Below are positions 1 to 13,541 of a stretch of DNA of 20,718 bases, one piece after another. Origin of the DNA: a virus; the IMG/VR virus record IMGVR_UViG_3300041409_000438, positions 1 through 20,718 of that record. One strand, written 5' to 3'. The notes under the pieces are model-generated. The model made no database searches. It saw only the letters and a program-made list of their open reading frames with translations, and was not told the origin of the DNA. The translations under genes and the position numbers were made by a program. How positions within the stretch are numbered: the first letter of the stretch is position 1; every line of letters begins with the position of its first letter.

Positions 1-371
1 TGAACACCGCCCGCCGCGCCGCGCTGCTGAACAACACCGTCCTCCGCGCCGCACTCCCGCGCGAGTCCGACGGCCAGATCCAGTCCGGCATGGTCGCCCC
101 GTTCCTCGGGCTCCGCGAGATCCTCTTCACGCCGCAGCTCGCCGCGAACACGGCGCTCCTCATCGACACCGGCCAGGCTGGCGTCATCGCAGACGAGCAG
201 CCCGACCCGGCCGAGGGCTTCTCCGCCTACAACCCGGGCCCGAACTTCGCCCCGATCTACGTCAAGGTCTACGAAGAGAACCGCCCGAAGGACTCGATCA
301 TCGCCGCCGGCCGCTGGCCTGCGATGGCGCTGACCGACCCGAAGGCCGTCGTCAAGATCACGGGGATCTAA
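1..371 (+). CDS. Major capsid protein, C-terminal part (5'-truncated)
   Basis: The reading frame is open from base 3 to the stop at 369-371 and its true start lies upstream of the window, so about 122 residues are visible. The visible part contains FLGLREILFTPQLAA, a segment ending in PIYVKVYEENRPKDS, and the closing stretch RWPAMALTDPKAVVKITGI. A beta-rich end with a conserved 'al.dP.avvkI.gi' finish is typical of HK97-fold major capsid proteins of actinophages, which form the icosahedral shell. An ATG at 90 exists, but coding character continues upstream of it, so it is not the start. Position supports the call: it precedes a connector, tail tube, chaperone and tape measure in canonical siphovirus order. 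The alternative is another head protein such as a decoration protein, which I consider less likely. Confidence 0.7.
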   Translation, partial: NTARRAALLNNTVLRAALPRESDGQIQSGMVAPFLGLREILFTPQLAANTALLIDTGQAGVIADEQPDPAEGFSAYNPGPNFAPIYVKVYEENRPKDSIIAAGRWPAMALTDPKAVVKITGI

Positions 372-374
372 CCG

Positions 375-728
375 ATGGCCAAGGCGACAGTTCTCACCGA
401 CCTCTACCGCTACCACCAGGAGACCGGCGATCCCACGTCGACGGTGCTCGAGGCGGAGCAGGGGAAGACGATCGACGTGTCGGACGACGAGCTCAAGCGC
501 GGCGTCGAGCTCGGCGCACTGTCCACGGGCTCTTCGACTTCGACGGCCTGGAAGGACGTCAAGCCGGAGCAGATGGACGCGTTCGCCAGCGCGAACGACG
601 TCGCCGACTACCCGACCGACGGGAAGAAGCCGGCGAAGGTCTCCGCTCTCGAGGCGGCCGGCCACGACGCAGGCACCGTTGCTGCGTTCGAGCTGACCAA
701 GCCCGACGGCGACCCGGTCAACGAGTAA
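375..728 (+). CDS. Small post-capsid protein with a HeH/SAP-like motif
   Basis: This 117-residue acidic protein starts 3 nt after the capsid stop; the ribosome site is weak, so translational coupling is likely. Residues 1-55 are not recognised. From about residue 62, KPEQMDAFASANDVADYP followed by DGKKPAKVSALEAAGHD has the helix-extended-loop-helix pattern of SAP/HeH-like modules: a short helix, a G/D-rich loop with basic residues, then a second helix. Such modules occur in small proteins next to capsid genes in actinophages, sometimes annotated as head fibre or head decoration proteins. Its role here is inferred from position only: a minor head component, or an assembly protein that binds DNA or capsid. 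No catalytic motif or membrane segment is visible. Coding is convincing; function is uncertain. Confidence 0.6.
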   Translation: MAKATVLTDLYRYHQETGDPTSTVLEAEQGKTIDVSDDELKRGVELGALSTGSSTSTAWKDVKPEQMDAFASANDVADYPTDGKKPAKVSALEAAGHDAGTVAAFELTKPDGDPVNE

Positions 729-743
729 CCCGGCGAGGGCCGA

Positions 744-1286
744 ATGGCCTACGCCGACGTCGCTGACGTAAAGGCTCGACTCGGACGGTACGCAGGCGTT
801 CTCGCCGCGGCCGGCTCTCCTCAGCATCCGAACGAGGACGACGCGACCGAGTTCCTCGCGAACGTCACCGCCGAGATCAACGCTGCGATCGAGTCGCGCG
901 GCTTCGACCCCGATACGCTGAGCGCGAACTCCATCACCGCGCTCAAGGATCTCGCCGCGTTCGGCGCGATCGCAAGGATCCTCGCCGGTGTCCCGCCGGA
1001 CGACGATCTCGCGAAGATCCACGAGTACGCCCGGAAGGTCTGGGGTGCGGCGATGGGTGACCCGACCGCGTTCGCGCTCGAGGCGATCCGCGGGTCGTTC
1101 CGGATGGGGTCACACCCGGTCATCGCCGACCTCGAGTCGGGCTCCGGTGCGGGAGCCCCGGGCGCGTCGGCTGGCGACTTCTGGAGCGAGAACCTCGGCT
1201 ACGGGTCGCCGGCGCAGATACGGGCTGCTGCCGAGGCTTCGTGGCCGTCGACGGCCCCGACGTTCGAGAAGGGCATGAGCGCGTAA
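744..1286 (+). CDS. Head-tail connector (gp6-like adaptor) protein
   Basis: This 180-residue protein starts at ATG 744 behind a good Shine-Dalgarno sequence (GGCGAGGG). The N-terminal MAYADVADVKARLGRYAGV is a typical opening of head-tail adaptor proteins of the HK97 gp6 class, followed by helices (EFLANVTAEINAAIESRGF, ITALKDLAAFGAIARIL) that in this family form a ring beneath the portal. The C-terminal third is Gly/Ser/Ala-rich (SGSGAGAPGASAGDFW) and ends in a short helix. The product would sit at the capsid vertex and join the portal to the tail. It lies between capsid and tail tube genes, as expected. No separate head-tail stopper or tail terminator is recognisable nearby, so this protein or the next one may cover more than one role. 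Confidence 0.65.
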   Translation: MAYADVADVKARLGRYAGVLAAAGSPQHPNEDDATEFLANVTAEINAAIESRGFDPDTLSANSITALKDLAAFGAIARILAGVPPDDDLAKIHEYARKVWGAAMGDPTAFALEAIRGSFRMGSHPVIADLESGSGAGAPGASAGDFWSENLGYGSPAQIRAAAEASWPSTAPTFEKGMSA

Positions 1287-1291
1287 CGCAG

Positions 1292-1330
1292 TCCTGCCCG
1301 TAGACGGCCTCGCGCCGATACTGGACAGTG
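1292..1330 (+). promoter_or_regulatory. Candidate leaderless promoter/start motif, copy 1
   Basis: In the 41-nt gap before the gene at 1328 the sequence CGCGCCGATACT occupies 1311-1322 and is followed by exactly 5 nt and a GTG start. GATACT resembles a -10 hexamer. A TCCTGCC box at 1292-1298 stands 18 bp upstream of GATACT, about where a -35 element would be. No Shine-Dalgarno sequence precedes the GTG, which fits a leaderless transcript. The same 12-mer with the same 5-nt spacing occurs before the genes at 9537 and 10939. The repeat is seen directly; promoter function is inference. Confidence 0.55.
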
Positions 1331-1795
1331 CCGACCGCCTACGTTCTCGACGCGGACGACCTCGCAGGCAGCGAGGCCGTGACGTTCCCCGGTTTCCCGG
1401 GTGTCTGGACGCCGGGCGAGCCGATCGCCGCAGCCGAGTTCGTGAAGGCTGGCGCGTTCGATTCCGTTGACGAGATGGGTGACCGTGTCGCCGAGCTGGG
1501 GCTGCCGTTGAAGCAGACGACGGTCGCGGACGGCGAGGGGCTGATGCCCGCCCGCGAGAACCATCTTCCGTCGCAGGAGCAGGCCGACGCGACGAAGGCG
1601 GAGCTGAACGGCCGGACGCCGAAGAGCCACGCCGAGGCCGACGCGATCGCAGCCGACCTCGGGATCTCGTTCCCGCCCGACGCCAAGCTTGACAAGAAGA
1701 AGGCGCTGATCGCGGAAGCGCTCGCGGAGCCGTCGGTGTCAGACGATCCGCCGCCGGCGGCCGAGGTCGCAGCGGCAGACGGGGCGGGTAGCTGA
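1328..1795 (+). CDS. Hypothetical head/tail-junction protein with HeH/SAP-like motif
   Basis: This 155-residue acidic protein begins at a GTG directly behind the CGCGCCGATACT-N5 motif and ends in a TGATG overlap with the tail tube gene. I do not recognise the N-terminal part, which carries VTFPGFPGVWTPGEPI and a helix-rich stretch AAAEFVKAGAFDSVDEMG. Residues about 97-137 (HAEADAIAADLGISFPPDA, then KLDKKKALIAEALAE) form a second HeH/SAP-like helix-loop-helix, distinct in sequence from the one in the 375-728 protein. The tail is a low-complexity D/P/A run. The gene sits where other siphoviruses encode the head-tail stopper or tail terminator, but nothing in its sequence identifies it as either. 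Having its own putative promoter, unlike its neighbours, is unusual for a morphogenesis gene. Confidence 0.6.
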   Translation: MPTAYVLDADDLAGSEAVTFPGFPGVWTPGEPIAAAEFVKAGAFDSVDEMGDRVAELGLPLKQTTVADGEGLMPARENHLPSQEQADATKAELNGRTPKSHAEADAIAADLGISFPPDAKLDKKKALIAEALAEPSVSDDPPPAAEVAAADGAGS

Positions 1796-2823
1796 TGCCT
1801 GCCGTCGACTTCGTCGAGATGATCCTCGAGACCGTCCAGGGCAACGAGAACGTCGCCCCGACGCTCGCCACGAAGAAGCTGTACCTCCCTGCCCGCTCCG
1901 CGCGGCTGTCGCCGGCACCGGGGCACCTCGACCGCTCCGACGAGCTGCGCTCGATCCAGGGTGCGCCGCCGCGGCTGATCGAGTCGTTCGCGCCGGGCGG
2001 CGCGATCTCCGAGCGCGCCTACTACAAGGACCTGACCTGGCTGCTCGAGCTCGCCGGGTTCGTCGGGACGGGCATCGTCGGCGACGGCGCGACGATCAAG
2101 GACCCCGACAACGCCACGATCCCCGCGACGGCGTACCGGTGGACGTTCGTGAAGCGCGACTCGATCGCCGCTCAGACCGCCCAGGTCAAGATCAACCACA
2201 AGGACGAGAACGTGTTGCTGACCGGCCGCGGGATGGGCGTCTCGTCGCTCAGCCTCAACGCCGCCGGCGACCTCTCCGCAGATCTCGCAGGCAACCACGT
2301 CGGCCGCGCCGCCGCGGACGCCGCCACCGTTCCCGCGTACGCATCGACGGCGATCCCGCCCGTCCGGCGCGGCGAGCTGTACCTCAACTGGCTCGCCGGT
2401 GGTGGCAAGCCGACCGACTTCTCGCTCGCGGTCGCGAACCCGCTCGAGCGCGTCTACGACCTCTCGCTCGCCGTGCCGTCGGCGTTCCCGTCGTCGCTCG
2501 AGCACGGCGACGACCAGGTCTACCTCACCGGGTCGATTCCGAAGCGGTCGCTGAACGCGACGGACTACGACGCGCTCCTCGGAGCGACGACGTTCGCGGC
2601 GACGGCCCGCTGGAAGTCATCGAAGTCGATCCTCGCGACCGCATACAAGTACGCGCTCTGGATCGAGATGCCGGCCTGCCAGTACGTCGGCGGTGACGCC
2701 GACGACATCGGCAACAAGCGTCACATCGGCGCGTCGTACGACTTCTTCGCGGCGTACGACGAGACCGCCGGCTACGACGTGAAGATCACGCTCGTCAACG
2801 ACGTCTCGTCGATCTACGCCTGA
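1795..2823 (+). CDS. Major tail (tube) protein
   Basis: This 342-residue protein overlaps the preceding stop by one base (TGATG). It has the features of siphovirus tail tube subunits: an N-terminal arm (MPAVDFVEMILETVQGNEN), a region opening GGAISERAYYKDLTWLLELA, and a long beta-rich remainder with an extra C-terminal beta domain (EHGDDQVYLTGSIP onward) ending in IGASYDFFAAYDETAGYD. Tail tube proteins polymerise as hexameric rings around the tape measure and carry DNA during injection. Placement directly before a frameshifting tail assembly chaperone and the tape measure is the canonical order and is the strongest evidence. The length is at the long end for tube proteins, which suggests an added surface domain. 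No enzymatic motif is seen. Confidence 0.72.
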   Translation: MPAVDFVEMILETVQGNENVAPTLATKKLYLPARSARLSPAPGHLDRSDELRSIQGAPPRLIESFAPGGAISERAYYKDLTWLLELAGFVGTGIVGDGATIKDPDNATIPATAYRWTFVKRDSIAAQTAQVKINHKDENVLLTGRGMGVSSLSLNAAGDLSADLAGNHVGRAAADAATVPAYASTAIPPVRRGELYLNWLAGGGKPTDFSLAVANPLERVYDLSLAVPSAFPSSLEHGDDQVYLTGSIPKRSLNATDYDALLGATTFAATARWKSSKSILATAYKYALWIEMPACQYVGGDADDIGNKRHIGASYDFFAAYDETAGYDVKITLVNDVSSIYA

Positions 2824-2825
2824 TC

Positions 2826-3440
2826 GTGAGCGCCGAGCGGCAGCCCGTCGTCACCGACGACCACATCAACCTCGACCTCCTCACCGGCGGCGACCGCACC
2901 CTCGAGCTCGCCGGCCGCAGGTACCCGGTGCGACGCGAGTTGAGCGTCCCGATGATGCGTCGCCTGCTGACGATCGAGGCGGAGCTGAACGAGGGCCTCG
3001 CCGACGACAACGGCGACGAGCGCGTCCAGCACGCAACGCTCCAGGGCTACGACGAGATCATGGCGCTGATCCGGGAGAAGACCCCGGACGCCGAGGATCT
3101 CGACCTCGACACGCGGCAGGTGCTCGTGATGCTGTCGTGGCTCGCTGGAGACAACTCCGTCGCGGACGCGATCGCGCGCGCGCTCACCGCCGGCGTCAGC
3201 GGCGCGAAGTCCGCCGAGGAGCTCGAGGATCCCGAGGTCGACCCGACCGTTGAAGGGGAGGATGCCGGCCTGGCGACCCCTTTCGACTCGAGCACGCACT
3301 CGACTGGGCTGTCCTCGAGCTCGGACGACAGAACCGATGGGAGCCTGGCTACTGGCTCGTCCCTCGAGGAGCGCCTGACGGTCTCGCCTGGCGGCTCTTC
3401 TGCGGCTACCTCGTCCACGCCCGAGCACGTGACCGTGTAG
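2826..3440 (+). CDS. Tail assembly chaperone, short (G-type) form
   Basis: This 204-residue frame starts at GTG 2826, 2 nt after the tail tube stop, with no clear ribosome site. Residues about 14-135 look like a folded helical protein (LDLLTGGDRTLELAGRRYPV, MMRRLLTIEAELNEGL, QVLVMLSWLAGDNSVADAI). By contrast, everything after residue 153 is a Ser/Thr-rich run (STHSTGLSSSSDD and on) that looks like out-of-frame translation. The change coincides with a CCCTTTC heptamer at 3278-3284. In siphoviruses with lambda G/GT-type chaperones the short form and a -1 frameshifted long form are both made and guide the tail tube protein onto the tape measure before they are lost from the mature tail. The position between tube and tape measure genes fits exactly. 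Confidence 0.7.
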   Translation: MSAERQPVVTDDHINLDLLTGGDRTLELAGRRYPVRRELSVPMMRRLLTIEAELNEGLADDNGDERVQHATLQGYDEIMALIREKTPDAEDLDLDTRQVLVMLSWLAGDNSVADAIARALTAGVSGAKSAEELEDPEVDPTVEGEDAGLATPFDSSTHSTGLSSSSDDRTDGSLATGSSLEERLTVSPGGSSAATSSTPEHVTV

Positions 3441-3589
3441 GCGCGGCCGGCGATGGGGGCACCCGCTCTCACGTCCGGCAGTTTCCGCCTCCGTCGCCGA
3501 GCGAGCTTCGCGACATTCCGTGGGTCGGTGAGGGCGACGACCCGCTCGAGGTCGAGCTCCAGCAGATGCTCGAAGAGGACGGCGGCTGA
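2826..3589 (+). CDS. Tail assembly chaperone, -1 frameshifted long (GT-type) form
   Basis: Joined product: zero frame 2826-3284 (153 codons), slip of -1 at CCCTTTC, then the -1 frame from 3284 to the TGA at 3587-3589, giving about 254 residues. The -1 frame is closed upstream by a TGA at 3251-3253, so it can only be entered by slippage after that point. From the slip site it reads as convincing protein, including LEHALDWAVLELGRQNRWE, WRLFCGYLVHARARDRV and ELRDIPWVGEGDDPLEVELQ, and its stop overlaps the tape measure start (TGATG). In lambda the equivalent gpGT binds both the tape measure and the tail tube subunits. Without this frameshift the roughly 150 bases before the tape measure would have no gene at all. 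Confidence 0.72.
3278..3284 (+). promoter_or_regulatory. -1 ribosomal frameshift slippery heptamer
   Basis: The heptamer C_CCT_TTC is in the correct register: zero-frame codons CCT (Pro) and TTC (Phe) re-pair as CCC (Pro) and TTT (Phe) after a -1 slip, the X_XXY_YYZ rule. The -1 frame is open from a TGA at 3251-3253 to the tape measure start. Downstream, CTCGAG-containing segments at about 3285-3330 could pair into a stimulatory stem, which I judged only by eye. Confidence 0.75.
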
Positions 3590-6500
3590 TGGCTAGGGTC
3601 GCTGTCCGCTTCGACGGTGTCTCCACTGGCGCGAAGAAGGCGGCGGCGGAGACGCGCGGCGCGATCAAGGGCGTACGGCAGGAGGCGGGGCTTACCGACA
3701 AGGCTGTCGGTCGTCTCGGCTCGTCGCTCAAGTCGGCACTCGTGATCGGCACGAAGGCGGGAGCGCTCGGCGTCGGTGCGCTTGCTGGCAGCGTCGCGTT
3801 TGCGGGCTTCAAGTTCGACGATCTGCGGCAGCGGTCGCAGATCGCGTTCGCGACGATGTTGCAGTCCGGGACGAAGGCGAAGTCGTTCCTCGACGACCTC
3901 GCGAAGTTCGCGGCGAAGACGCCGTTCGAGTTCCCGGACCTGATCCGGTCGTCGCAGCGCCTCCTCGCGATGGGCGTCGCGGCGAACAAGATCATTCCGG
4001 TGATGACGGACGTCGGGAACGCCGTCGCGGCGATGGGCGGCGACCCGCAGGCGATGGAGGCGACCGTCCGTGCGATCGGGCAGGTGCAGGCGAAGGGCCG
4101 GCTGATGGCCGAGGAGATGCTCCAGCTGAACGAGGCCGGGACGTTCTCGTGGCGCGGGCTCGCGCGCGAGATCGGGACGAGCGTCCCGAAGGCGATGGAG
4201 CTCGTGACCAAGGGTGCGGTCACGAGCGCCGCGTTCCTAGAGGCGTTTCAGCGGAACAGCCAGCGGCGTTTTGCGGGGATGATGGAGCAGCAGTCGCACA
4301 CGTTCGCGGGTCTGTGGTCGACGATCAAGGACACGTTCGCGCAGATCTCGGGGAAGGTGATGCAGCCGTTCTTCGACCTGACGACTCGCGGGTTCCAGAA
4401 GCTCGTCGACATCACCTCGACGCCGGAGTTCACGGCCGGGGTCGACCGGTTCGCCGCGTCGCTCCAGAAGAAGGTCGGTGGCGCGGCGCGCGACGTCGTC
4501 GACTTCTTCCGCGACAACTGGGGTCAGATCAAGGACGACCTGTTCAGCCTCGGCACGACCGCGAAGAACGTCGCGAAGGACGTGAAGGCGGTCGCGACTG
4601 CGGCACACAACGTCGCGACCGCGATCGGTGGCTGGGACAACGTGATCAAGGTCGCGCTCGCCGCGGCGGTCGTCAGCAAGGTCTCTGCGTTCGCCGCGTC
4701 GCTGGCGGCGGCGAAGGGCAGCGCGACGGGGTTGTCGGTCGCGATGACGTCTCTGTCGAAGCTCGGCGCGATCGCGCTCGCCGTCGACCTCTCGCGCGGC
4801 GGCGACTCGCTCGCATGGAAGATCGTGTCGGGCGCGTTCAACGCGGGCCAGTCGAGCGCCGACTTCGTCGGCCTCGACGGGCAGCTCGGCGTCCAGGGCC
4901 GCGCCGGCGGCGGCGGCGCGACGGGCGTGCAGACGTCGCTGACCGACAAGACGCGGCGGTGGCTGTCGTCGCCGGGCGTTCACTTCCTCAGCGGCAACGG
5001 CGGCAGCGTCCAGGTGATCGGGCCCGCCGGCGACGTCTTCCACACCTTCTCGGCGGGCGACAACAGTCTCCTCGCGAACGCGGCACGCGAGCGTGCACGG
5101 ATGGGCGTCGAGGTTCAGCGTTCCGAGGCGGAGCAGTCGGCGGTCGGGATGAGCGTCGCGGGCGCGTCGGGTGCGACGCGGAAGGTGTTGAGCTACGCGG
5201 CGAAGTACGGGGCCGGCTCCGGGATCACGTACACGTGGGGCGGCGTGTCGCCGCAGACCGGGTTCGACTGCTCCGGCTTCATCTACGCGGCCTACAAGGC
5301 GGCTGGCGTGTCGATCCCGCGGACGTCGGACACCCAGTTCTACGACGAGCACGCCGAGGACACGACGGGACGTGAGGAGGCCGGCGACGGCGTCTACTTC
5401 CAGGGGTCGAACAGCGGCGCGAACGCAGGCCGCCCGCCGCGTCACTGCGGGATCTACATCGGTAACGACCGCTATGTCGAGTATTTCTCCGGCGGCCAGC
5501 CCGCGAAGGTCGCGACGCTCTCGCAGGCGTCCGGCTACATGGGCGCGCGCCGCTGGGTCAAGATCGTCTCGAAGGCCGACGCCGGTGTGGATCCGTTGTC
5601 GCCGTCGGACGCGCCGATCAAGCTCGGCGCGGGCAAGGGCGCGACGAAGAAGGTCGCGATCCCGACGGGGTCGAAGCTGCTCCCGATCGATGTCCGGACG
5701 GCGATCGCGCGGGCGGCACGGACGGCACGGACGAGCGACGACCTGACGGCGTACGAGGACGCGGCGGACAACCTCCGCGGGCAGCTGCGGAAGAAGGGTC
5801 TCGGCGGGAAGCAGCGCCTTGCGATCGAGGAGGAGCTGTCGACGATCCAGAAGAAGATCAACTCGATCAAGACGAACCAGTACGAGGACAAGATGAAGGC
5901 GATCGCGGCCGCGACGAAGAAGCGGCTCGCGGAGGCCCGCAAGGCGGTCGAGGAGGCGCGGCAGGCGTTCGAGCAGGCGTACGGCCGGCTCGCGGAGCGC
6001 GCACTCGACGCGTTCGACCGGGAGACGAAGAAGCGGCTCGACAAGGTCGACGACGACCTCAAGGCCCGGCTCGCCGGGATCGAGTCTGGCCGTGCGACGC
6101 TGACGCCGGAGGAGGTGGCGCTCGCGGCGTTCCAGGCGTCTCGGCAGGCTGCCGACGACGCACGCCGCCGCGCCGAGCTGTCGGCGGCGGTCGGTGCGGC
6201 CGAGACACCGGAGGAGCGTGCGAAGGCGCTCGAGGATCAGGCCCAGTTCGAGCTCGACCTTGAGGAGCGGACGCTCCGCGAGGCGGCCGACACGGCACGG
6301 AAGGCGGTCGACGACCGTGCGCAGGCGGATCAGCAGGCCGCCCAGGATGCGGCGGAGACGTTGCGGCAGCAGGTTCAGGACGAGCGCGCGATCGAGCGGC
6401 AGAACTTCCAGGATCGCCTCGACGACCTCGAGGTGTTCCTCGCGGACAGGCACGGCAGCGTCGCCGGCGCGAACGAGTTGCTGCTCGGGCTGATGGAGGA

Positions 6501-7026
6501 GTTCGGTTTGAAGCCGGAGTGGTTCACGTCGGGTCGCGGCGCTGGCGAGGCGTGGGTGAAGGGCCTGACGGCGGCGATGGGAGAGGTGCAGGCGAAGGTC
6601 ACGGACCTCGGGTCGGCCGCGGAGGGGCTGCAGGTCTCGATCGACACCGGGGCGGGCGGCGTGGTGTCCGTCGATTCCGACTATGCCGAGGCGCATGGTC
6701 TGACGCCGCAGGCGTACGCGGCGCAGTCGGGCCGTTACAACGCGCTCGCGAACTACTACAAGAACCTGCCGCGCCGCGCGCGCGGCGGGAAGCTCCCGGG
6801 CCAGTACGTCGGCGCGGAGGACATGACGTTGTATCGCGGCACGCCGGGCGAGACCGTCATCGATCGCCGCCTCACGGACGCGCTCGAGGCGGTCTTCGTC
6901 CGTGGCGGCGGGATGGCGCAGGCGGGCGACGTGTACCTCGACGGTCAGAAGGTGGGCCGGATCATCGCGCAGCCGGTGCAGTCTGAGCAGGCGCGCTCGA
7001 TCTCGTATCGCTCGTCGAGGGCCTAG
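3589..7026 (+). CDS. Tape measure protein with internal NlpC/P60 peptidoglycan hydrolase domain
   Basis: This 1145-residue protein is the longest in the window and overlaps the frameshifted chaperone by one base. Residues about 75-270 form the conserved tape measure domain (FKFDDLRQRSQIAFATMLQS, KFAAKTPFEFPDLIRSSQRL, AEEMLQLNEAGTFSWRG). A hydrophobic segment lies near 355-375 (VIKVALAAAVVSKVSAFAAS). Residues about 525-665 are an NlpC/P60 domain with the nucleophile Cys561 in FDCSGF and His619 in RHCGIYIG; the usual third polar position appears to be Glu631. Residues about 750-960 are a long charged coiled coil. The protein sets tail length, and the hydrolase probably opens peptidoglycan during infection. 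At about 1.5 angstrom per residue the full length predicts a tail near 170 nm. Confidence 0.9.
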   Translation: MARVAVRFDGVSTGAKKAAAETRGAIKGVRQEAGLTDKAVGRLGSSLKSALVIGTKAGALGVGALAGSVAFAGFKFDDLRQRSQIAFATMLQSGTKAKSFLDDLAKFAAKTPFEFPDLIRSSQRLLAMGVAANKIIPVMTDVGNAVAAMGGDPQAMEATVRAIGQVQAKGRLMAEEMLQLNEAGTFSWRGLAREIGTSVPKAMELVTKGAVTSAAFLEAFQRNSQRRFAGMMEQQSHTFAGLWSTIKDTFAQISGKVMQPFFDLTTRGFQKLVDITSTPEFTAGVDRFAASLQKKVGGAARDVVDFFRDNWGQIKDDLFSLGTTAKNVAKDVKAVATAAHNVATAIGGWDNVIKVALAAAVVSKVSAFAASLAAAKGSATGLSVAMTSLSKLGAIALAVDLSRGGDSLAWKIVSGAFNAGQSSADFVGLDGQLGVQGRAGGGGATGVQTSLTDKTRRWLSSPGVHFLSGNGGSVQVIGPAGDVFHTFSAGDNSLLANAARERARMGVEVQRSEAEQSAVGMSVAGASGATRKVLSYAAKYGAGSGITYTWGGVSPQTGFDCSGFIYAAYKAAGVSIPRTSDTQFYDEHAEDTTGREEAGDGVYFQGSNSGANAGRPPRHCGIYIGNDRYVEYFSGGQPAKVATLSQASGYMGARRWVKIVSKADAGVDPLSPSDAPIKLGAGKGATKKVAIPTGSKLLPIDVRTAIARAARTARTSDDLTAYEDAADNLRGQLRKKGLGGKQRLAIEEELSTIQKKINSIKTNQYEDKMKAIAAATKKRLAEARKAVEEARQAFEQAYGRLAERALDAFDRETKKRLDKVDDDLKARLAGIESGRATLTPEEVALAAFQASRQAADDARRRAELSAAVGAAETPEERAKALEDQAQFELDLEERTLREAADTARKAVDDRAQADQQAAQDAAETLRQQVQDERAIERQNFQDRLDDLEVFLADRHGSVAGANELLLGLMEEFGLKPEWFTSGRGAGEAWVKGLTAAMGEVQAKVTDLGSAAEGLQVSIDTGAGGVVSVDSDYAEAHGLTPQAYAAQSGRYNALANYYKNLPRRARGGKLPGQYVGAEDMTLYRGTPGETVIDRRLTDALEAVFVRGGGMAQAGDVYLDGQKVGRIIAQPVQSEQARSISYRSSRA

Positions 7027-7027
7027 C

Positions 7028-8254
7028 GTGGCGCGGCTGCCGCTCACGCTGACGGGCGGGGTCGTCACCGACGCCGATCGGCGCGCGCAGTTCTCGCTCG
7101 GGCTGCTGGCGTCGGGGCAGATGTGCGACGGCATCCGCGCCCCGGATCATTCGCTCGGGATCCGGCGTGCCGCGACCAACCTGTTCCGGCGCGGCCAGTG
7201 CGACGCGACGACGGACACGACGATGACGGCGGGCGCGACCAGAGTTGTCGACGCGACCGTACCCGCGCCGTTCTCGCCGCAATCGATCAAGGTGACGACG
7301 GATGGCACTTCTGCCGCCCAGGGAATCGTGCTCGACAGCGCGACCGGGCAGGCTGCGGCAGCGGCCACGAACGGCGTAGCGGCGGTCTACGTCAAAGGCG
7401 TGATCGGGCAGCAGTACGACGTCACGTTGCGGTGGCAAACAACCCTCCCAGCGACGGTCATCGGTGTCGCGACGACGATCGTCGCGACGGGGGGCTGGCA
7501 GCTCGTCTCTGCGCCAGCGACCGCCGTTCCGGTGGGGCAGGTTGGGGATCAGGTGCGCGTTCAGGTCAAGATCAACGGCACGCGCGCCGAGTCGTTCTGG
7601 GTTGCGCACGCGATGCTCGAGAAGGGCCAGTCGGTCGTCTCGCCCTACGTCGCGACGTCGGGCGGAGCGACCGCCACACGCGCGGCCGGTCGCGTGCAGG
7701 CTCCGGCGACGCTTCTGAATACCGCGACGTTCTGGGCGGCCGCGCGCGTCCGCGTGGGATGGGCCGCCACAGACGACCAATACGGCGGCGGCGGCAACGG
7801 GCCGCAAATCTTCCTATGGGGAACACCTGGAGCGAGCGAGTACGCGAGCCTCTTCTACCGCGAGGGCGACAACGCCTGGCGGATGCGAGTCGGCGACACC
7901 GTTGCCGCGAGGTCGGAAGCTCTCATCGCCGGCACCCATACGGCCGGTGCGACCGTGACAGTCGTCGGCGCGCTTGTCGGCTCAGCACCCTGGATCTCGC
8001 TCAACGGCGGGGCGTTCGTGAAAGCGGCCGCGTGGCCTGTAGTTCCGCCAACCTCTCTCTTCGACATAGGCAACAACGGGGGCGCGTCTCAGGTCAACGG
8101 CGAGGTTCTATGGTTCGCGTGCGGCACCGGCACGCTCACCGACGCCGACGCCGCCCGGATCCACGCGAAGCTCGCAGGCGGCACGGAGCCCACGATCGGC
8201 GAGCTCAACCTCCTCGGACTCGGGGCGACCGCAGTCGTCCGAGGCTACGCGTGA
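7028..8254 (+). CDS. Minor tail protein with LamG/concanavalin-like domain (adhesin candidate)
   Basis: I choose GTG 7028, just after the tape measure stop, giving 408 residues; in-frame codons upstream lie inside the tape measure gene. The N-terminal part opens LPLTLTGGVVTDADRRAQF. The middle (about 60-210) looks like a carbohydrate-binding-type beta sandwich, with GVAAVYVKGVIGQQYDVTLR and ESFWVAHAMLEKGQSVVSPY. The C-terminal half (about 230-390) resembles a LamG-like jelly roll: TATFWAAARVRVGW, ASLFYREGDNAWRMRVGDT, WISLNGGAFVKA, and the characteristic ending GTLTDADAARIHAKLAGG. Such proteins sit at the tail tip and may bind surface glycans. Codons are markedly less G/C-ended here than in flanking genes (an AGA and several A- or T-ending codons), consistent with horizontally exchanged adhesin domains. 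It overlaps the next gene by GTGA. Confidence 0.65.
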   Translation: MARLPLTLTGGVVTDADRRAQFSLGLLASGQMCDGIRAPDHSLGIRRAATNLFRRGQCDATTDTTMTAGATRVVDATVPAPFSPQSIKVTTDGTSAAQGIVLDSATGQAAAAATNGVAAVYVKGVIGQQYDVTLRWQTTLPATVIGVATTIVATGGWQLVSAPATAVPVGQVGDQVRVQVKINGTRAESFWVAHAMLEKGQSVVSPYVATSGGATATRAAGRVQAPATLLNTATFWAAARVRVGWAATDDQYGGGGNGPQIFLWGTPGASEYASLFYREGDNAWRMRVGDTVAARSEALIAGTHTAGATVTVVGALVGSAPWISLNGGAFVKAAAWPVVPPTSLFDIGNNGGASQVNGEVLWFACGTGTLTDADAARIHAKLAGGTEPTIGELNLLGLGATAVVRGYA

Positions 8255-9513
8255 GCGTCTACTACGAAACCCCCGACAGCGGGCGCATCGCGCGCGCGAC
8301 GCACCGCCTCCAGATCGGCTGGGGCTCCTACAACGCCGGCCTGATCTCCTTCGACCACTCCACCTTCGGCGGCACAGACGTCTTCGGGATCTCCCCCCTC
8401 GACTCCACCTTCGGCGGCACCTACGACGACGTCAGCTCCCGCCTCGCCACCGGCCGGTTCAGTCGCGGCCGCGACAACAACCTCGACGTCATGCTCGCCG
8501 GCGAAGCCACCATCGACCTCCGCGACCCGCTCGGCATCTTCAACCCGAACAACGTCACCGGCCCGCTCTACGGGCAGCTCGAAGACCGGCTGCACCCAGT
8601 CAAGTGGGAGGCGACCACCGCAAGCGGCCGCCGCGGCCTCTTCGCCGGCTGGACCCGCCGCTTCCGCTGGGAGCCCGGCGGACGGAAAGGCATCACCCGC
8701 GTCGAGTGCGTCGACGCGTTCTACTGGCTCGAACGCGCGAAACCCCTCATCTCCTCAACAGGCGTCACGACGACCGGCGCAGCGATCGGCCTCATCCTCG
8801 ACGCCGTCGAACTCTCCGACCCGTCGATGCGGGCACTCGACACCGGCGACACGATCCCCGACTTCGAGGCGGACGGATCGAAGACCGGGCTCGAGCTGAT
8901 CCAAGACCTGCTCCAGGCAGAGCGCGGCGTCTTCTACATCTCCGGCGACGGCCTCGCCACCTACCGCTCCCGCCTCTCCCGCCTCACCGCGCCGAGCACC
9001 GCGACGTTCGACCATCGCGTCACCGCGATCGAGCCCGGCGTCGACTTCGACGCCGCCAAGACCCGCGTCACCGTCACCCGCGTCGACGCGGCCGGCACCG
9101 CCACCTACACCGGCACCGCCACCTCGAGCGGCGCGTCGTACCAGAAGCTCGGCTACAGCGACCTTCCGGAGATCCGGACGCCCTACCTCATCTCCGACGC
9201 TCAGGCTGACGAGCTCGCGTCGTGGATCCTCGCGCAGGTTCAGACCCCGACGCCGCCGATGTACGGCTTCAAGATCGACGGCCGCGACAGCGACCTTCTC
9301 GAGCAGATCCTCGACCGCGACCTCGTCGACCGCATCACCGCGAACACGCCGCGCGGCAACACCCAGGGCGAGTACCACATCGACCGCCTCACGATCAACG
9401 TCGACGCGAAGGGCCTGATGGCCTCCGACTGGCTCCTCTCGCGCGCCACCACCGCCGCGCCGATCGTGTTCGACACGGCCGCGTTCGACGAGGGCTACGT
9501 CTTCGTCTACTAG
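8251..9513 (+). CDS. Minor tail protein (tail-tip/baseplate type)
   Basis: GTG 8251 overlaps the previous stop (GTGA), giving 420 residues. The protein resembles actinophage minor tail proteins encoded downstream of the tape measure: an early WGSYNAGLISFDHSTFGG region, a beta-rich domain with RDPLGIFNPNN and KWEATTASGRRGLFAGW, a central VECVDAFYWLERAKP, an ELIQDLLQAERGVFYISGDG segment and a C-terminal part ending FDTAAFDEGYVFVY. The ELIQDLLQAERG...YRSRLSR pattern recalls tail hub proteins that surround the tip of the tape measure. No lytic motif is seen. The N-terminal part carries an in-frame 19-bp direct repeat (8357-8375 and 8402-8420) encoding STFGGT twice. Codon usage is strongly G/C-ended, in contrast to the gene upstream. 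The family call is moderate; the exact tail position is inferred from order. Confidence 0.65.
   Translation: MSVYYETPDSGRIARATHRLQIGWGSYNAGLISFDHSTFGGTDVFGISPLDSTFGGTYDDVSSRLATGRFSRGRDNNLDVMLAGEATIDLRDPLGIFNPNNVTGPLYGQLEDRLHPVKWEATTASGRRGLFAGWTRRFRWEPGGRKGITRVECVDAFYWLERAKPLISSTGVTTTGAAIGLILDAVELSDPSMRALDTGDTIPDFEADGSKTGLELIQDLLQAERGVFYISGDGLATYRSRLSRLTAPSTATFDHRVTAIEPGVDFDAAKTRVTVTRVDAAGTATYTGTATSSGASYQKLGYSDLPEIRTPYLISDAQADELASWILAQVQTPTPPMYGFKIDGRDSDLLEQILDRDLVDRITANTPRGNTQGEYHIDRLTINVDAKGLMASDWLLSRATTAAPIVFDTAAFDEGYVFVY
8357..8420 (+). repeat. 19-bp in-frame direct repeat within minor tail gene
   Basis: ACTCCACCTTCGGCGGCAC occurs at 8357-8375 and again at 8402-8420, offset by 45 bp (15 codons), so the two copies encode the same S-T-F-G-G-T peptide in the same frame. 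This looks like an old tandem duplication of a 15-residue unit. Confidence 0.8.
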
Positions 9514-9518
9514 CCCGG

Positions 9519-9539
9519 CCGCGCCGATACTGGTACGTG
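9519..9539 (+). promoter_or_regulatory. Candidate leaderless promoter/start motif, copy 2
   Basis: CGCGCCGATACT occupies 9520-9531, followed by GGTAC and the GTG start at 9537, the same 12-mer and 5-nt spacing as before 1328 and 10939. No Shine-Dalgarno sequence is present. Unlike the other two copies there is no TCCTGSC box 18 bp upstream; a pyrimidine-rich TTCGTC lies about there but is inside the end of the preceding gene. Confidence 0.55.
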
Positions 9540-10178
9540 CCAGCCACGATCCCTATGCCGACGAAGTCGTCCGGCGACGTCCTCACGTCGGCGCTCTGGA
9601 ACACCTACGTCCGCGACAACATCGACAAGCTCCTGTCGCGCGGCCATCGTGTCCTGACCGTCGCGCAGTTCGCCGCGCTCACCGGTCCCGAAGGGACGAA
9701 GGGAACCGTCGCGCCCGACGAGGTCTACCTCGAGGTCGATGCGACGAACGGCATTCAGTGGCATCTGGCCTACGAATCGGGCGAGCCGACCTATAAATGG
9801 AGGTTTCTCGGAGGGCCGCCGCTCCAGGCTACGGTCACCGCGAGCGAGACGACGACAGCGACGTCTCCGGGAGACCTGGCGACGGTCGGGCCGTCAATCA
9901 CGCTGCCCCGAGGAGGCGATTACGCCGCCGACTGGAGCGTCGCGCTCGGAGCGAACGTCGTCCCGACGAATCTGCTCGCACCGCTGACCAAGAACAACGT
10001 AGTGCAGCAGAATCTCCAGTTCACGATCGGGACGGCTGGCATCTCTTACGACGTTTCGAAGTTCTGGCCCGTCAACGCCGCCGCCGCTGACGTCATCAAG
10101 GTTCGTTACTCCGTCAATGCGAACACCGGCACCTTCCAGGCCAGAATCCTCCGCATCGTTCCGGTAAGGATCGCCTGA
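9537..10178 (+). CDS. Tail-associated protein (fibre/tip candidate)
   Basis: I place the start at GTG 9537, directly behind the GATACT-N5 motif, giving 213 residues; it ends in a TGATG overlap with the next gene. The N-terminal SSGDVLTSALWNTYVRDNID is a recurring motif in phage tail or fibre-associated proteins ('sGdvltaa.wN.yvrDNi..L'). Residues about 35-95 include VLTVAQFAALTGPEGTKGTV and a short beta module ending WRFLGG. The C-terminal half (about 98-210) is beta-rich (AADWSVALGANVVP, IKVRYSVNANTGTFQARIL), suggesting a compact fibre tip or adhesin domain. The second half uses more A/T-ending codons (tat aaa, ttt, aat) than neighbours, again suggesting modular exchange of a host-range part. 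No enzyme motif is visible; exact function is unassigned. Confidence 0.6.
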   Translation: MPATIPMPTKSSGDVLTSALWNTYVRDNIDKLLSRGHRVLTVAQFAALTGPEGTKGTVAPDEVYLEVDATNGIQWHLAYESGEPTYKWRFLGGPPLQATVTASETTTATSPGDLATVGPSITLPRGGDYAADWSVALGANVVPTNLLAPLTKNNVVQQNLQFTIGTAGISYDVSKFWPVNAAAADVIKVRYSVNANTGTFQARILRIVPVRIA

Positions 10179-10888
10179 TGGCGACGATCGACGACCTTCG
10201 CGCGCTTGGCTACACGATCGGGATCGCGAGCGGATGCGTCCAGACTGAGCTTGACGCTCTCTGCGCGGCGCGCGAAGAGGGATCAGCGGCCACGATCGCC
10301 GCGGCCGCGAACGAGGTCACGGCGTTGACGGTCAGGCAGCTAGACGCCGAGGGTCGCCTTCCCGACACGGCGGAGGCGCGGCTCGAGCTCGCGCAGCAGA
10401 TCGCGGCGTCGGCGATCGACGGCCTGACCGCACGCTCGACGGAGCGCGTCGCGTTCCATGAGCGAGCCGTCGAGGAGGCCCGGAAGATGCCGACCGTCTG
10501 GCACTTCGCCGGGCCGCTGGTCAACGGCTATATCCAGGCGAAGGACGACGGGACCGGCTGGGACGACGACGCCCAAGAAGCTATCGATGCGCTCGCCGAC
10601 CCAGAGGCCTACGCGGAGCGCTCCTATCAGGCGGGCAACTCGGACTGTTGTCTGGCCGCGACGACGATCGCGTCGCGCGGCGTCGAGGTCACGCGGCCGA
10701 AGCCAGGCGAGGACGTCTGGGAGGCGGAGGGCCGAACGTTCTCCGGCGAGGAACTCGTGGCGTTCTCGCGCGATGTCGCTGAGCGGCCGACTCCGCCGAC
10801 GACTCAGGAGAAGGTGACGTCCGTGCTCGTCAACGCTCCCGAGCTCGGCGAAGCAACGCGCGCAGCGCTCCTCGACGCGCTCAGCTAA
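10178..10888 (+). CDS. Hypothetical phage protein between tail and lysis genes
   Basis: This 236-residue acidic protein overlaps the previous stop (TGATG) and is probably cotranslated with the tail gene before it. I do not recognise a family. The N-terminal half is Ala-rich helix (AATIAAAANEVTALTVRQLD, LAQQIAASAIDGLTARST) and could form a coiled coil. The middle contains MPTVWHFAGPLVNGYIQAKD with aromatic and acidic residues and a CC pair (SDCCLAATTIAS). The C-terminal part has PGEDVWEAEGRTFSGEELVA and a last helix LGEATRAALLDALS. There is no signal peptide or membrane segment. The position suggests a tail accessory or a protein cotranscribed with the tail, but that is inference only. Confidence 0.55.
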   Translation: MATIDDLRALGYTIGIASGCVQTELDALCAAREEGSAATIAAAANEVTALTVRQLDAEGRLPDTAEARLELAQQIAASAIDGLTARSTERVAFHERAVEEARKMPTVWHFAGPLVNGYIQAKDDGTGWDDDAQEAIDALADPEAYAERSYQAGNSDCCLAATTIASRGVEVTRPKPGEDVWEAEGRTFSGEELVAFSRDVAERPTPPTTQEKVTSVLVNAPELGEATRAALLDALS

Positions 10889-10923
10889 CGCGCCCCTCGC
10901 GCTCCTGGCGTCAACGGGGCGCG
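10889..10923 (+). terminator. GC-rich hairpin between tail and lysis genes (possible weak terminator)
   Basis: A perfect 8-bp inverted repeat, CGCGCCCC at 10889-10896 and GGGGCGCG at 10916-10923, brackets a 19-nt loop immediately after the TAA of the preceding gene. No U-tract follows, so it is not a classical intrinsic terminator; in high-G+C phages such stems can still act in termination or mRNA end protection. Its right arm touches the CGCGCCGATACT motif, so the two may interact. Confidence 0.35.
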
Positions 10924-10941
10924 CGCCGATACTCGTAGGTG
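10903..10941 (+). promoter_or_regulatory. Candidate leaderless promoter/start motif, copy 3
   Basis: CGCGCCGATACT at 10922-10933 precedes the GTG start of the endolysin gene (10939) by 5 nt, identical in sequence and spacing to the copies before 1328 and 9537. TCCTGGC at 10903-10909 lies 18 bp upstream of GATACT, matching the TCCTGCC box of copy 1 in both position and sequence. No ribosome binding site is present. Together these suggest a lysis-gene promoter that gives a leaderless mRNA; this is inference from the repeat. Confidence 0.58.
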
Positions 10942-11727
10942 ACTCCGTTCCGGTTCGGCGATGAGGGCCCCGACGTCCTCCAGTGGCAGAAGCTGCTCCA
11001 GGCGAAGGGGTTCGTCGTCAACGCCGACGGCGTCTTCGGGAAGCAGACCCGGTCCGCGACGAACGTCGCGCAGCACTGGGCGGGCGTCGCCGCCGACGGG
11101 ATCGTCGGCCCCCGCACGATCGCCGCCGTACGCGCGAAGAAGCGGACGAAGCGCCCCGCGACCGTCGTCCGGCACGTCGTCCGGCCGGCCGCGTGGCGGC
11201 CCAAGATCCTGGACGCCCGCCGCGGCAAGCACGGCTTCCCACGCCACGCGTCCCGCCGGTGGCAGACGCGCGCCGCGTCAGAGATCGTCGCGAAACTCGG
11301 CCACTACACCGGCGGCCCCGCCTCGTTCCTCGCCGACGCGAACTTCCACGTCCGCACCGACTACCTGTCCGAGGGCGGCGCGCCCGCGATCGCGTACACG
11401 CTCGGCGTCGACAAGGACGGCACGATCCTCGTCTTCAACGACTGGCACGACGTCACGTGGCACTGCGACGGCGGCCACAACACCGACACCCTCGGCGTCG
11501 TGTTCCGCGGCGGCGCTGAAGGGCCGACGCTCGCGCAGAAGCGCACGCTCCGATGGCTCTGGAAGCAGCTCGAGGCCGGCACGTTCCGGCCGACGAAGAC
11601 CGACCCGCGATGGCCGCAGCTGAGGGTCTCCACGACGCACCGGCACGTCAACTCGACCTCATGCCCTGGCGAGAAGGGCGAGGCGTTCTACCGGTCGATC
11701 AGCCCGCGCTTCACAACGGGGCTGTAG
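10939..11727 (+). CDS. Endolysin: peptidoglycan-binding domain plus N-acetylmuramoyl-L-alanine amidase
   Basis: The GTG start at 10939 gives 262 residues and no signal peptide, so export through a holin is expected. Residues about 3-62 are a PG_binding_1 repeat (FGDEGPDVLQWQKLLQAKGF, DGVFGKQTRSA, DGIVGPRTIAAVRA). A basic linker follows. Residues about 115-255 are an Amidase_2 domain: FHVRTDYLSEGGAPAIAYTL with His137, then HCDGGHNTDTLGVVF, and THRHVNSTSCPG with His234/His236 and Cys242; His137 and residues in the last motif would be the zinc ligands. The enzyme would cut the amide bond between N-acetylmuramic acid and L-alanine of the stem peptide to lyse the host. A binding domain N-terminal to the catalytic domain is a less common order. 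It heads the lysis cassette. Confidence 0.88.
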   Translation: MTPFRFGDEGPDVLQWQKLLQAKGFVVNADGVFGKQTRSATNVAQHWAGVAADGIVGPRTIAAVRAKKRTKRPATVVRHVVRPAAWRPKILDARRGKHGFPRHASRRWQTRAASEIVAKLGHYTGGPASFLADANFHVRTDYLSEGGAPAIAYTLGVDKDGTILVFNDWHDVTWHCDGGHNTDTLGVVFRGGAEGPTLAQKRTLRWLWKQLEAGTFRPTKTDPRWPQLRVSTTHRHVNSTSCPGEKGEAFYRSISPRFTTGL

Positions 11728-11730
11728 CGG

Positions 11731-12282
11731 ATGGGCGTCTTCCTCTTTCCCCTCGCGACGATCGAGCTCGCGTTCCTCGCGGCGCTCGCCCGGCTCCTCG
11801 GCGGCGTCAACTTCTCGAACACGATCAACCTCGGCGCGGCGATCATCGCGCTCCTGCTCGCCGTCGGAACGCTCATCGGTGTCTTCTACGGCGTCCGCTA
11901 CAAGTCCGCCGCCGACGCATCATCCGCCGCCGCGGCCGCGCACGAATCGAACGCCCACGCCGAGCGCTCACGCGCCGACCGCCTCGAGACGGCGCTGGCC
12001 GAGACGAACGAGATCCTCGGCCAAGCACGCGTCACGATCGAGAGGCTCGAGGCGCTCCCGAACCTCGTCAAGGTGATCGAGTTCATGGACGCGACCGCGC
12101 AACGGATCGACGAGCGCGCGAAGCTCCGAACCGAGGAGGCCGACGAACGCGCGAAGCAGCGGCTCGACCTCGCGCTCAACGAAGTCCAGGGGTTCGTCCG
12201 CGGCGAGCTCCAGTCGCACGAGGAGGAGGCGAAGAGCCGCCACGCCGAGCTCGTCAACACGATCCGAGGAGGTTCACGATGA
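11731..12282 (+). CDS. Two-TM membrane protein with cytoplasmic-type coiled coil, lysis cassette
   Basis: ATG 11731 lies 3 nt after the endolysin stop; 183 residues. Two hydrophobic segments are clear: about 3-24 (VFLFPLATIELAFLAALARL) and about 31-55 (LGAAIIALLLAVGTLIGVFY). From about 58 to the end there is an Ala/Glu/Arg-rich coiled coil (SSAAAAAHESNAHAERSRAD, ETALAETNEILGQARVTIER, RIDERAKLRTEEADERAKQR). A membrane-anchored coiled coil next to an endolysin and holin may be a holin-like or accessory lysis protein; comparable extra membrane proteins occur in actinophage lysis cassettes. Which one forms the lethal hole cannot be read from the sequence. The stop overlaps the holin start (ATGA), and a strong Shine-Dalgarno for the holin lies inside its last codons. 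Confidence 0.65.
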   Translation: MGVFLFPLATIELAFLAALARLLGGVNFSNTINLGAAIIALLLAVGTLIGVFYGVRYKSAADASSAAAAAHESNAHAERSRADRLETALAETNEILGQARVTIERLEALPNLVKVIEFMDATAQRIDERAKLRTEEADERAKQRLDLALNEVQGFVRGELQSHEEEAKSRHAELVNTIRGGSR

Positions 12283-12488
12283 AGCACCCGAACGCGGCAG
12301 CGACCGGCAGCACGACCCTCGCTGCGGTCGTCGCCGTCTGGCTCCTCGGCCACTTCGGCATCACCATCACCGCCGAGGGTGGCGCGGCGATCGCCGGCGG
12401 CGCGTCCGCCGTGATCCTGTATCTCGGCCGTCACGGTGTCCGTGGCGCGTGGCGCGCGTTCCTCGACGGCGACAAGGCTAAGCCGTGA
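12279..12488 (+). CDS. Holin (two transmembrane segments)
   Basis: ATG 12279 overlaps the previous stop (ATGA) and has the best ribosome site of the region, GAGGAGG at 12266-12272, 6 nt before the start. The 69-residue product has TM1 about 11-30 (STTLAAVVAVWLLGHFGITI), a short turn, TM2 about 34-50 (GGAAIAGGASAVILYLG) and a charged C-terminal tail (RHGVRGAWRAFLDGDKAKP). Size, two membrane spans and a basic tail fit small phage holins that permeabilise the membrane to release the endolysin. It overlaps the convergent - strand gene by 11 nt, so the rightward lysis transcript runs into the leftward immunity operon. Confidence 0.75.
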   Translation: MKHPNAAATGSTTLAAVVAVWLLGHFGITITAEGGAAIAGGASAVILYLGRHGVRGAWRAFLDGDKAKP

Positions 12489-12780
12489 CGCCGTCCTCGA
12501 CCGCGTCGTCGTCGAGGCCACGCCAGTTGTCGCCCGTCTCGCGCTCGTAGCGGACAGCCTCGAACTCGACGAGCTGCGCGAGCCGGTCAGACGTCCGTGT
12601 CTGCTGCGCGAGCGAACGGCCCATGAAGAGGCCCTTCGCGATGAAGTACGCGCCCATCCCGTGCCCGATCACCTCGAACCAGCTGCTCTCACCGGCCGAC
12701 TGGAACTGGAGCAGGTAGATCCCGGCCCCGATCGAGATCAGGGCGATGACGACGTCCAGAATGCTGCCGGTGCTCTTCAC
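12478..12780 (-). CDS. Two-TM membrane protein in the immunity operon (possible lysogenic or exclusion factor)
   Basis: On the - strand, GTG at 12780 with AGGGAGGG 3 nt upstream gives 100 residues. TM1 is about 7-25 (ILDVVIALISIGAGIYLLQF) and TM2 about 35-53 (FEVIGHGMGAYFIAKGLFMG), followed by a charged tail (AQQTRTSDRLAQLVEFEAVR). Codon choice is strongly G/C-ended and typical for the window, so this strand is the coding one. It lies downstream of the repressor on the same strand, separated by 247 nt, and is thus likely expressed in the lysogen. Small membrane proteins in that position are often superinfection-exclusion or lysogenic conversion factors; that role is inferred only from position and topology. 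A third holin-like protein or antiholin is the alternative. Confidence 0.65.
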   Translation of the reverse strand: MKSTGSILDVVIALISIGAGIYLLQFQSAGESSWFEVIGHGMGAYFIAKGLFMGRSLAQQTRTSDRLAQLVEFEAVRYERETGDNWRGLDDDAVEDGVTA

Positions 12781-13027
12781 AGACCCTCCCTAGATACCTC
12801 GGTGACCGCCGGTTCCCTCGTTTGAGTGACGTCGTTTGACACGGTCGGCGGCGAAGGATTGAGTAGGTCCAAGCCCGGGGCGGCAGGGCCGTCGTGTCCC
12901 GCTAGGGAGGTAGACGTTGTCGCCGCAGGACGAACACCTGTTCGCATTACGTCCGGCCGCTCAACTACCGTCCTGCGTCCGGTCGACGCGTGAGGGCCGG
13001 CGGCAATGATCGAACCCGAGTACGACC
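12781..13027. other. 247-nt spacer between the immunity genes, with regulatory signals
   Basis: No gene on the - strand covers this stretch. It holds, left to right, two CGTTTGA repeats 14 bp apart (12819-12825, 12833-12839), a TTGACA at 12836-12841 that could be a + strand -35 with a poor -10 (TTGAGT, 12859-12864), an AGTGACGTC copy (12825-12833) shared with the operator region at 13511, an AGGGAGG at 12904-12910 six bases before a TTG that opens a 30-codon + strand frame (12917-13009), the SOS-box-like dyad 12931-12944, and an ATG at 13006 overlapping that frame's stop (ATGA). No tRNA, attachment-site duplication or terminator is recognisable. Confidence 0.5.
12931..12944. promoter_or_regulatory. 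LexA (SOS) box-like dyad
   Basis: CGAACACCTGTTCG is a perfect 6-bp inverted repeat around 2 bp and an exact match to the CGAAC-N4-GTTCG core of Gram-positive LexA/DinR boxes. It lies in the spacer between the repressor gene and the leftward membrane gene, 61 nt upstream of the + strand ATG at 13006. I could not identify a convincing promoter overlapping it; TTGAGC on the - strand (12964-12959) lies at a suitable distance but the -10 would be poor. Direction of control is therefore open. An unrelated dimeric repressor could also use such a dyad. Confidence 0.6.
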
Positions 13028-13219
13028 TCAACGCGCACCCCCCGACGACCGAGGAGTTGATCGCTGCCCTGCGATCCCCGCTGCCTCTTCGAGACGTGCC
13101 AGCCGTTCGACGGCTGCTGCAACAAGCTCGTTCCGTTCCCGCCGCAACTCCGCGACCTCTGCTTCGAGCGCTTCCAGGCGGCGAAGAACCTCAAGATCCG
13201 AACCGACGTCCTCTGCTGA
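13006..13219 (+). pseudogene. Apparent Cys-rich small gene split over two frames, antisense to the repressor tail
   Basis: ATG 13006, with GAGGG about 9 nt upstream, opens MIEPEYDLNAHPPTTEELIA in frame 1. Around 13061-13070 the coding character moves to frame 2, which runs to a TGA at 13217-13219 and reads CDPRCLFETCQPFDGCCNK, then ends QAAKNLKIRTDVLC. Frame 2 has no start codon of its own. By my count 48 of 52 frame-2 codons end in G or C, with a balanced first and a low second position, as in real genes of this window. The opposite-strand repressor tail in the same bases ends in G or C in only 39 of 69 codons. A single skipped base near 13069 would join the parts into a protein of about 70 residues with seven or so cysteines, perhaps metal-binding. 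It may be a frameshifted gene, a programmed +1 event, a sequencing error, or a mirror artefact of the coiled coil. Confidence 0.4.
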
Positions 13220-13456
13220 CCGTCGTGCGAAGGTAACCCACTCCTCCGGCGTCCCCCCCAGCTCCGTCGCGAGACGGCGCGCGACGATCCGTCCTACCGA
13301 CCGGTCGCCGTTCTCGATCTTCACGATCGCGGTCCTGTCCGTCTTCACCCGCCGGCCGAGTTCCTCCTGGGTGATGCCGAGCGCCTCGCGGGCGTCGCGG
13401 ACGCGGCGTCCGTAGGCGACGGCGATCGGGTCACGCAGCTTTTCACGTGGCGTCAC
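13028..13456 (-). CDS. XRE-family HTH regulator, probable immunity repressor
   Basis: I choose GTG at 13456 (- strand), giving 142 residues; longer in-frame extensions would run through the operator region and the divergent gene. Residues about 13-68 are an XRE/lambda-repressor-type helix-turn-helix (VAYGRRVRDAREALGITQEE, LGRRVKTDRTAIVKIENGDR, RIVARRLATELGGTPEEW). Residues 87-126 read as a regular coiled coil (DLEVLRRLEALEAEVAELRR) that could dimerise the protein. There is no LexA-like autocleavage domain. It is divergent from the HTH gene at 13542 and upstream of a membrane protein, the usual arrangement of a phage repressor. Oddity: the first 73 codons end in G or C about 88% of the time by my count, the last 69 only about 57%, and + strand coding signal appears opposite this tail. 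The true C-terminus may differ. Confidence 0.75.
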   Translation of the reverse strand: MTPREKLRDPIAVAYGRRVRDAREALGITQEELGRRVKTDRTAIVKIENGDRSVGRIVARRLATELGGTPEEWVTFARRSAEDVGSDLEVLRRLEALEAEVAELRRERNELVAAAVERLARLEEAAGIAGQRSTPRSSGGAR

Positions 13457-13541
13457 GTGACAGACCCTGCCTACACCGGGCCCGAAACGTAAGAGACACC
13501 GGGTTGACACAGTGACGTCACCGTGACATAGTGCCGTCACT
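13444..13541. promoter_or_regulatory. Operator cluster between divergent HTH genes
   Basis: The intergenic region holds repeated GTGAC/GTCAC half-sites: a perfect palindrome GTCACGTGAC (13452-13461) over the - strand GTG start, a perfect palindrome GTGACGTCAC (13512-13521) in the -35/-10 spacer of the rightward promoter, and GTGAC-N8-GTCAC (13523-13540) across its -10 and start region. Two GTGAC copies at 13512 and 13523 are 11 bp apart, one helical turn. Such spacing suits cooperative binding by one or both HTH proteins. A related AGTGACGTC lies at 12825-12833. The repeats are visible; the binding protein is inferred. Confidence 0.6.
13504..13532 (+). promoter_or_regulatory. Rightward early promoter (sigma-70 type)
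   Basis: A perfect TTGACA (13504-13509), a 17-bp spacer and CATAGT (13527-13532) form the best promoter in the window. The ATG of the HTH gene at 13542 is only 9 nt beyond the -10 and no Shine-Dalgarno is present, so transcription probably begins at or within a few bases of the start codon (leaderless mRNA). The GTGAC/GTCAC dyads lie over the spacer and start, as expected for an early promoter shut off by the repressor. Confidence 0.72.

Follow-up and report, generated by a model that had tools for sequence, protein, structure and literature searches.

Recurrent −10-like elements at a fixed distance before late genes of a siphovirus-like phage group: likely leaderless promoters for a putative phage-encoded sigma factor

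The window, our term for the whole stretch of DNA analysed, is a 20,718-base IMG/VR virus record, a siphovirus-like genome fragment from a soil phage. It runs from the end of a major capsid protein gene through connector, tail protein, tape measure, baseplate-like and endolysin genes, followed by a repressor-like HTH gene, RecT, SbcCD and the first part of an integrase-like gene. The integrase-like gene was assigned by reading; a curated integrase occupies a comparable place in L097. Two profile scans of genome contigs, for tail and for portal, turned up no relative, and a phage collection yielded distant portal and terminase matches only. The portal matches were to Arthrobacter, Gordonia and Mycobacterium phages and also to Pseudomonas phages, a similarity that only suggests a host in the Actinomycetota; we take the phage of the window for a temperate, probably actinobacterial siphovirus.

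A sequence-only reading of the window had picked out a 12-mer, CGCGCCGATACT, lying 5 nt before each of three GTG starts. All of its coordinates proved exact (Table 1), each GTG opens a long ORF, and an exact search of both strands of the window returned only these three copies of GATACT, as that reading had supposed. It had also placed the elements in real intergenic gaps lacking Shine-Dalgarno sequences, and this held up: the gaps carrying copies 1, 2 and 3 measure 41, 23 and 50 nt, the spacers between element and GTG are GGACA, GGTAC and CGTAG in the same order, and inspection of gaps and spacers found no Shine-Dalgarno sequence at any of the three sites. Ranking of 7-mers in the window put CGATACT at the top for positions 5–6 nt before RTG (3/3, versus 0 on the opposite strand). 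When the window was resampled 300 times under a first-order Markov model, with 12-mers counted before N5-RTG, no 12-mer exceeded 2 copies, against the 3 observed; triples arose in 0 of 300. One proposal fell away. TCCTGSC, noted at copies 1 and 3 at a distance of 18 bp upstream of GATACT, was considered as a shared −35 and dropped, since a logo of 26 sites has no conserved block in the 25 bases scored before GATACT and no conservation upstream of about −4 from it; the match is most likely due to chance.

Table 1. Positions of elements, associated genes, the early promoter and candidate sigma-factor genes
Feature	Record	Position	Strand	Remarks
Element copy 1, CGCGCCGATACT	Window	1311..1322	+	Core CGATACT 1316-1322; 5 nt to GTG 1328; exact match
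155-aa late gene	Window	1328..1795	+	ORF between connector-like gene and tail protein; homologues in same place in relatives
Element copy 2, CGCGCCGATACT	Window	9520..9531	+	Core 9525-9531; 5 nt to GTG 9537; exact match
213-aa gene	Window	9537..10178	+	ORF after baseplate-like gene; G002 homologue 45% identical
Element copy 3, CGCGCCGATACT	Window	10922..10933	+	Core 10927-10933; 5 nt to GTG 10939; exact match
Endolysin (amidase and peptidoglycan-binding repeat), 262 aa	Window	10939..11727	+	phrog_1493, E 8e-29
TTGACA-17-CATAGT	Window	13504-13532		Before early HTH regulator
ORF1/ORF2 pair	L036	770-1376		
ORF1/ORF2 pair	L096	9593-10304		
ORF1/ORF2 pair	L101	6795-7425		
ORF1/ORF2 pair	L103	2070-2766		
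ORF1/ORF2 pair	L104	593-1313		
ORF1/ORF2 pair	L105	470-1274		
ORF1/ORF2 pair	L123	4596-5217		
SigH-like gene	L096	1329-1838		NCBIfam, E 5e-19

Relatives were gathered by way of the tail protein, portal and terminase, giving 10 IMG/VR records that bear copies of the motif; most of the records are metagenomic fragments. These are G001 (L004's record, which includes L096), G002 and G011 (L091 and L036, near-identical and overlapping records), G003 (L005), G004 (L092), G005 (L093/L105), G006 (L094/L104), G007 (L095/L103), G009 (L101) and G013 (L123). The form CGATACT occurs 5–6 nt before RTG in G002/G011, G009 and G013; the form CGATAGT was found in one relative, G001, and G003 has a single site. 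A sister form, CGAA[TC]CTAG, is present in G004–G007, four records without CGATACT at starts. It emerged de novo when k-mers at set distances ahead of ORF starts were ranked with no motif assumed. A version of the motif is the best 7-mer 5–6 nt before RTG in the window, G001, G002, G004, G005, G009 and G013, leading the ranking by far in G001, G002, G009 and G013, and the top 7-mers of G006 (CCGAATC) and G007 (GAATCTA) cover the sister motif with an offset.

Across the 11 records (window plus 10 relatives), the coding strand carries 79 copies and the opposite strand 2. A total of 67 copies fall 4–8 nt before an ORF start. There are 64 distinct sites, and the spacer is 5–6 nt in 62 of them. Whole-record counts gave 5–9 forward matches per relative, with reversed-pattern controls at nearly zero. 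Exact-pattern scans of IMG/VR serve as a negative control: nearly all matches were single and chance-like, and several copies per record were seen only in the relatives of the window and in L051 (G012), apart from the short contigs L158 and L176 with two each. L051 (IMGVR 2734481948_000006) is more distant and phage-like; it has CGATACT 5–6 nt before starts at 5342, 5859 and 6664, and a connector-like gene is among the three genes downstream.

Copies on the wrong strand or inside genes, and loss of the motif from homologous gaps, had been named beforehand as observations that would speak against promoters. The strand counts above and the small number of copies away from starts run the other way, and the motif is kept in the homologous gaps of relatives. 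The gap before the homologue of the 155-aa late gene (gap A) carries the element in the window and 8 relatives, with the site one gene upstream in G003. The gap after the baseplate-like gene (gap B) carries it in the window and 5 relatives, beginning 11–15 nt past the matched end of that gene; the frame following one gap B site in G013 is open for only 8 codons. In L004's record the element lies 5 nt before a peptidoglycan-binding-like gene, in a place comparable to that of copy 3.

The sites keep to the structural module, and no element was found near RecT or SbcCD in the records examined. The window elements span 1311–10933. Sites in G001 extend from 12636 to 32983, with RecT at 38539; they reach 17066 in G002 (RecT at 19329), 22216 in G006 (RecT at 27952) and 28377 in G013 (SbcD at 35126). 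The only sigma-70-type consensus promoter in positions 1–14200 of the window, TTGACA-17-CATAGT, precedes the early HTH regulator. Its predicted start falls close to the ATG (13542) with which the HTH gene begins, as for a near-leaderless early promoter of ordinary type.

Two lines of evidence bear on whether the element acts on transcription or translation. First, a tRNA-Met follows the element by 5 nt in G001 and G006 and by 4 nt in G004, according to both ARAGORN and Rfam. tRNAs have no start codon, and therefore the element there must act on transcription. Second, 55 of the 64 distinct sites have a G as sixth base after the 7-mer. Genes starting with GTG have a spacer of 5 nt in 43 of 46 cases; those starting with ATG have a spacer of 6 nt in 12 of 18, and the extra base is G in all 12. 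It is thus this G, and not the start codon, that keeps its distance, as would be the case if transcription began there. With the G as reference, the A of GATACT lies near −11 and its last T near −7, as in a −10 box. No Shine-Dalgarno sequence was found with the element.

RNAs that fold like tRNA-Met, with shortened arms, also lie directly after the element in G005 (L105, 9183) and G007 (L103, 9342). ARAGORN calls no tRNA at either position; these are possibly degenerate tRNAs or tRNA-like small RNAs.

Strand, proximity to starts, kept gaps and tRNA sites together support leaderless late promoters, as the sequence-only reading had proposed, as the best account of the element. We consider it likely that the 12-mers are −10-only leaderless late promoters used with a late-specific, most likely phage-encoded, sigma factor. 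The RNA probably starts at or within one base of the first codon; for the 155-aa late gene the predicted RNA start is the G of its GTG.

The same promoters might instead be read by the host housekeeping sigma factor, in the manner of actinobacterial leaderless genes, which have TANNNT about 12 bp before the start (Zheng 2011, PMC3160421). The phage elements match that signal in having the −10 box some 12 bp ahead of the start and in the lack of both a 5′ UTR and a Shine-Dalgarno sequence, and they keep its A at −11 and T at −7. They depart from it at −12, where the base is a constant G and not T in both the main form and the sister form found de novo, and in the conserved C and GC further upstream. 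Moreover, the sites are confined to late genes, whereas the early HTH regulator has its own promoter of ordinary type, and the motif varies among related phages. We therefore regard reading by the host factor as unlikely. An operator for a phage repressor or activator, stoperator-like and not itself a −10, would likewise be an asymmetric conserved sequence present in many copies on one strand, but its distance to the predicted RNA start would not be expected to be fixed to a base and −10-like, with A and T near −11 and −7 of a −10 hexamer and few copies away from starts; we give this explanation little credence.

Least credible is a translation-initiation signal of the same type as the start-associated sequences of cluster K mycobacteriophages; this would explain a fixed distance to start codons but not the same distance before tRNA and tRNA-like genes, the lack of a Shine-Dalgarno core in the element, or a distance held to a G and not to the start codon. 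The cluster K sequence, GGGATAGGAGCCC, contains a Shine-Dalgarno core and precedes non-structural genes that mostly start with ATG (PMC3203893). The two resemble each other as short asymmetric repeats on one strand, a few bases before starts; the difference in sequence that had been pointed out earlier is real, and module and start codon differ as well.

If the elements are leaderless late promoters with their own factor, a candidate for that factor lies upstream of the terminase. All 7 relatives that cover this region (G001, G005, G006, G007, G009, G011 and G013) have an ORF resembling sigma region 2 (ORF1) and overlapping it an ORF resembling region 4 (ORF2). ORF1 matched the region 2 profile PF04542 with E 2.8e-5 in L103 and more weakly in others, with no match in L036 and L096. 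Its AlphaFold core, residues 51–120, has pLDDT of 78–90; the 50 Foldseek matches listed for this core are all sigma factors or their complexes, none with E < 0.001. A profile search of the PDB returned sigma factors only, the best being FliA (E 0.0067), and the nearest solved relatives of ORF1 are FliA/WhiG. In this search the I-D-x-x-R-S of ORF1 aligns to LDELRS of FliA; D81 and R84 of FliA help to read the extended −10, which gives a lead, not a test, for ORF1. ORF2 is a helix-turn-helix protein whose region 4 matches are weak: it matched Sigma70_r4 in L036 (E 0.0019) and gave mixed HTH matches elsewhere. TIGR02937 positions 16–81 fall on ORF1, and in L036 positions 132–163 fall on ORF2.

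In 7 of 7 records ORF2 is in the +1 frame relative to ORF1, which runs through the junction without a stop. By codon usage, ORF1 is the favoured frame up to the junction and ORF2 beyond it; the ORF1 score in G009 is below zero, yet above that of ORF2. The junction codon is ATG in 4 records, GTG in 1 and CTG in 2, with no Shine-Dalgarno sequence. A programmed +1 frameshift and two separate subunits are both possible. SigO/RsoA of Bacillus subtilis is a two-subunit sigma factor with regions 2 and 4 in separate ORFs. The phage pair is similarly split over ORFs, but in it the two ORFs overlap, with ORF2 in the +1 frame and no junction stop in ORF1. A small zinc-ribbon-like ORF (CxxCGWRxYxxAPNGxPGWHxPxRCxxC) directly follows ORF2 in L096 and L101, back in the frame of ORF1.

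Other sigma-like genes were also considered. L096 encodes a second sigma factor, SigH-like by NCBIfam, which was set aside as reader of the motif. Among the records searched it occurs only in L004's, and for this reason we prefer the conserved ORF1/ORF2 pair. A Sigma70_r2 match in G012 was rejected as a phage factor; it lies at the contig end and resembles a host ECF gene. No sigma pair was found within the 15.7-kb fragment of G012. The distant G008, read as two large pieces and hence a weak control, has neither the pair nor repeated motif copies.

Related phages carry different members of one motif family, which lacks a −35 and co-occurs with a phage sigma-like factor. The sigma-like protein probably reads the motif, to judge from this co-occurrence in one phage group and from weak sequence similarity, though a host sigma factor with this preference could also be the reader. 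For the window's own phage the factor is one we infer, because that region lies outside the fragment. The consensus for sigma28 is TAAAGTTT-n11-GCCGATAA (PMC2859248). The main form of the phage element, GCCGATAC, matches 7 of 8 bases of this −10, GCCGATAA, as read by FliA/WhiG. There is no TAAA −35 here, the phage genes are leaderless, and the sister form, GCCGAATC, diverges after GCCGA.

T4-type late promoters are −10-only and are read through a small phage-encoded sigma factor. The elements described here resemble them in being −10-only and in their putative small phage sigma, but have another sequence, and the T4 type is not known as leaderless. In the mechanism we propose, RNA polymerase with a late-specific sigma factor would bind GCCGATACT, and transcription would start at the purine six bases past the element. 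The start purine would be the G of GTG, and the mRNAs therefore leaderless; most ATG genes of the relatives, placed one base further, would have a one-base leader. Structural and lysis genes would be under these promoters, as would a tRNA in relatives. The factor would most likely come from the ORF1/ORF2 pair. Our fullest version of this is tentative: a sigma28-like factor produced from a pair of overlapping reading frames, by programmed +1 frameshift or as split subunits, may drive most late mRNA and tRNA transcription from −10-only leaderless promoters whose sequence varies among phages in step with the factor.

Both phage sigma factors and leaderless genes have precedents; in this phage group the two appear to be combined in one late program of leaderless −10-only promoters, whose probable reader is a small sigma-like protein of the phage. 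Since the motif differs between related phages, the factor/promoter pairs may be swappable, which could be used to probe −10 recognition by sigma region 2. In soil phages that have not been cultured, the motif is also a marker, readable from the sequence by itself, of late operons and of the true starts of genes.
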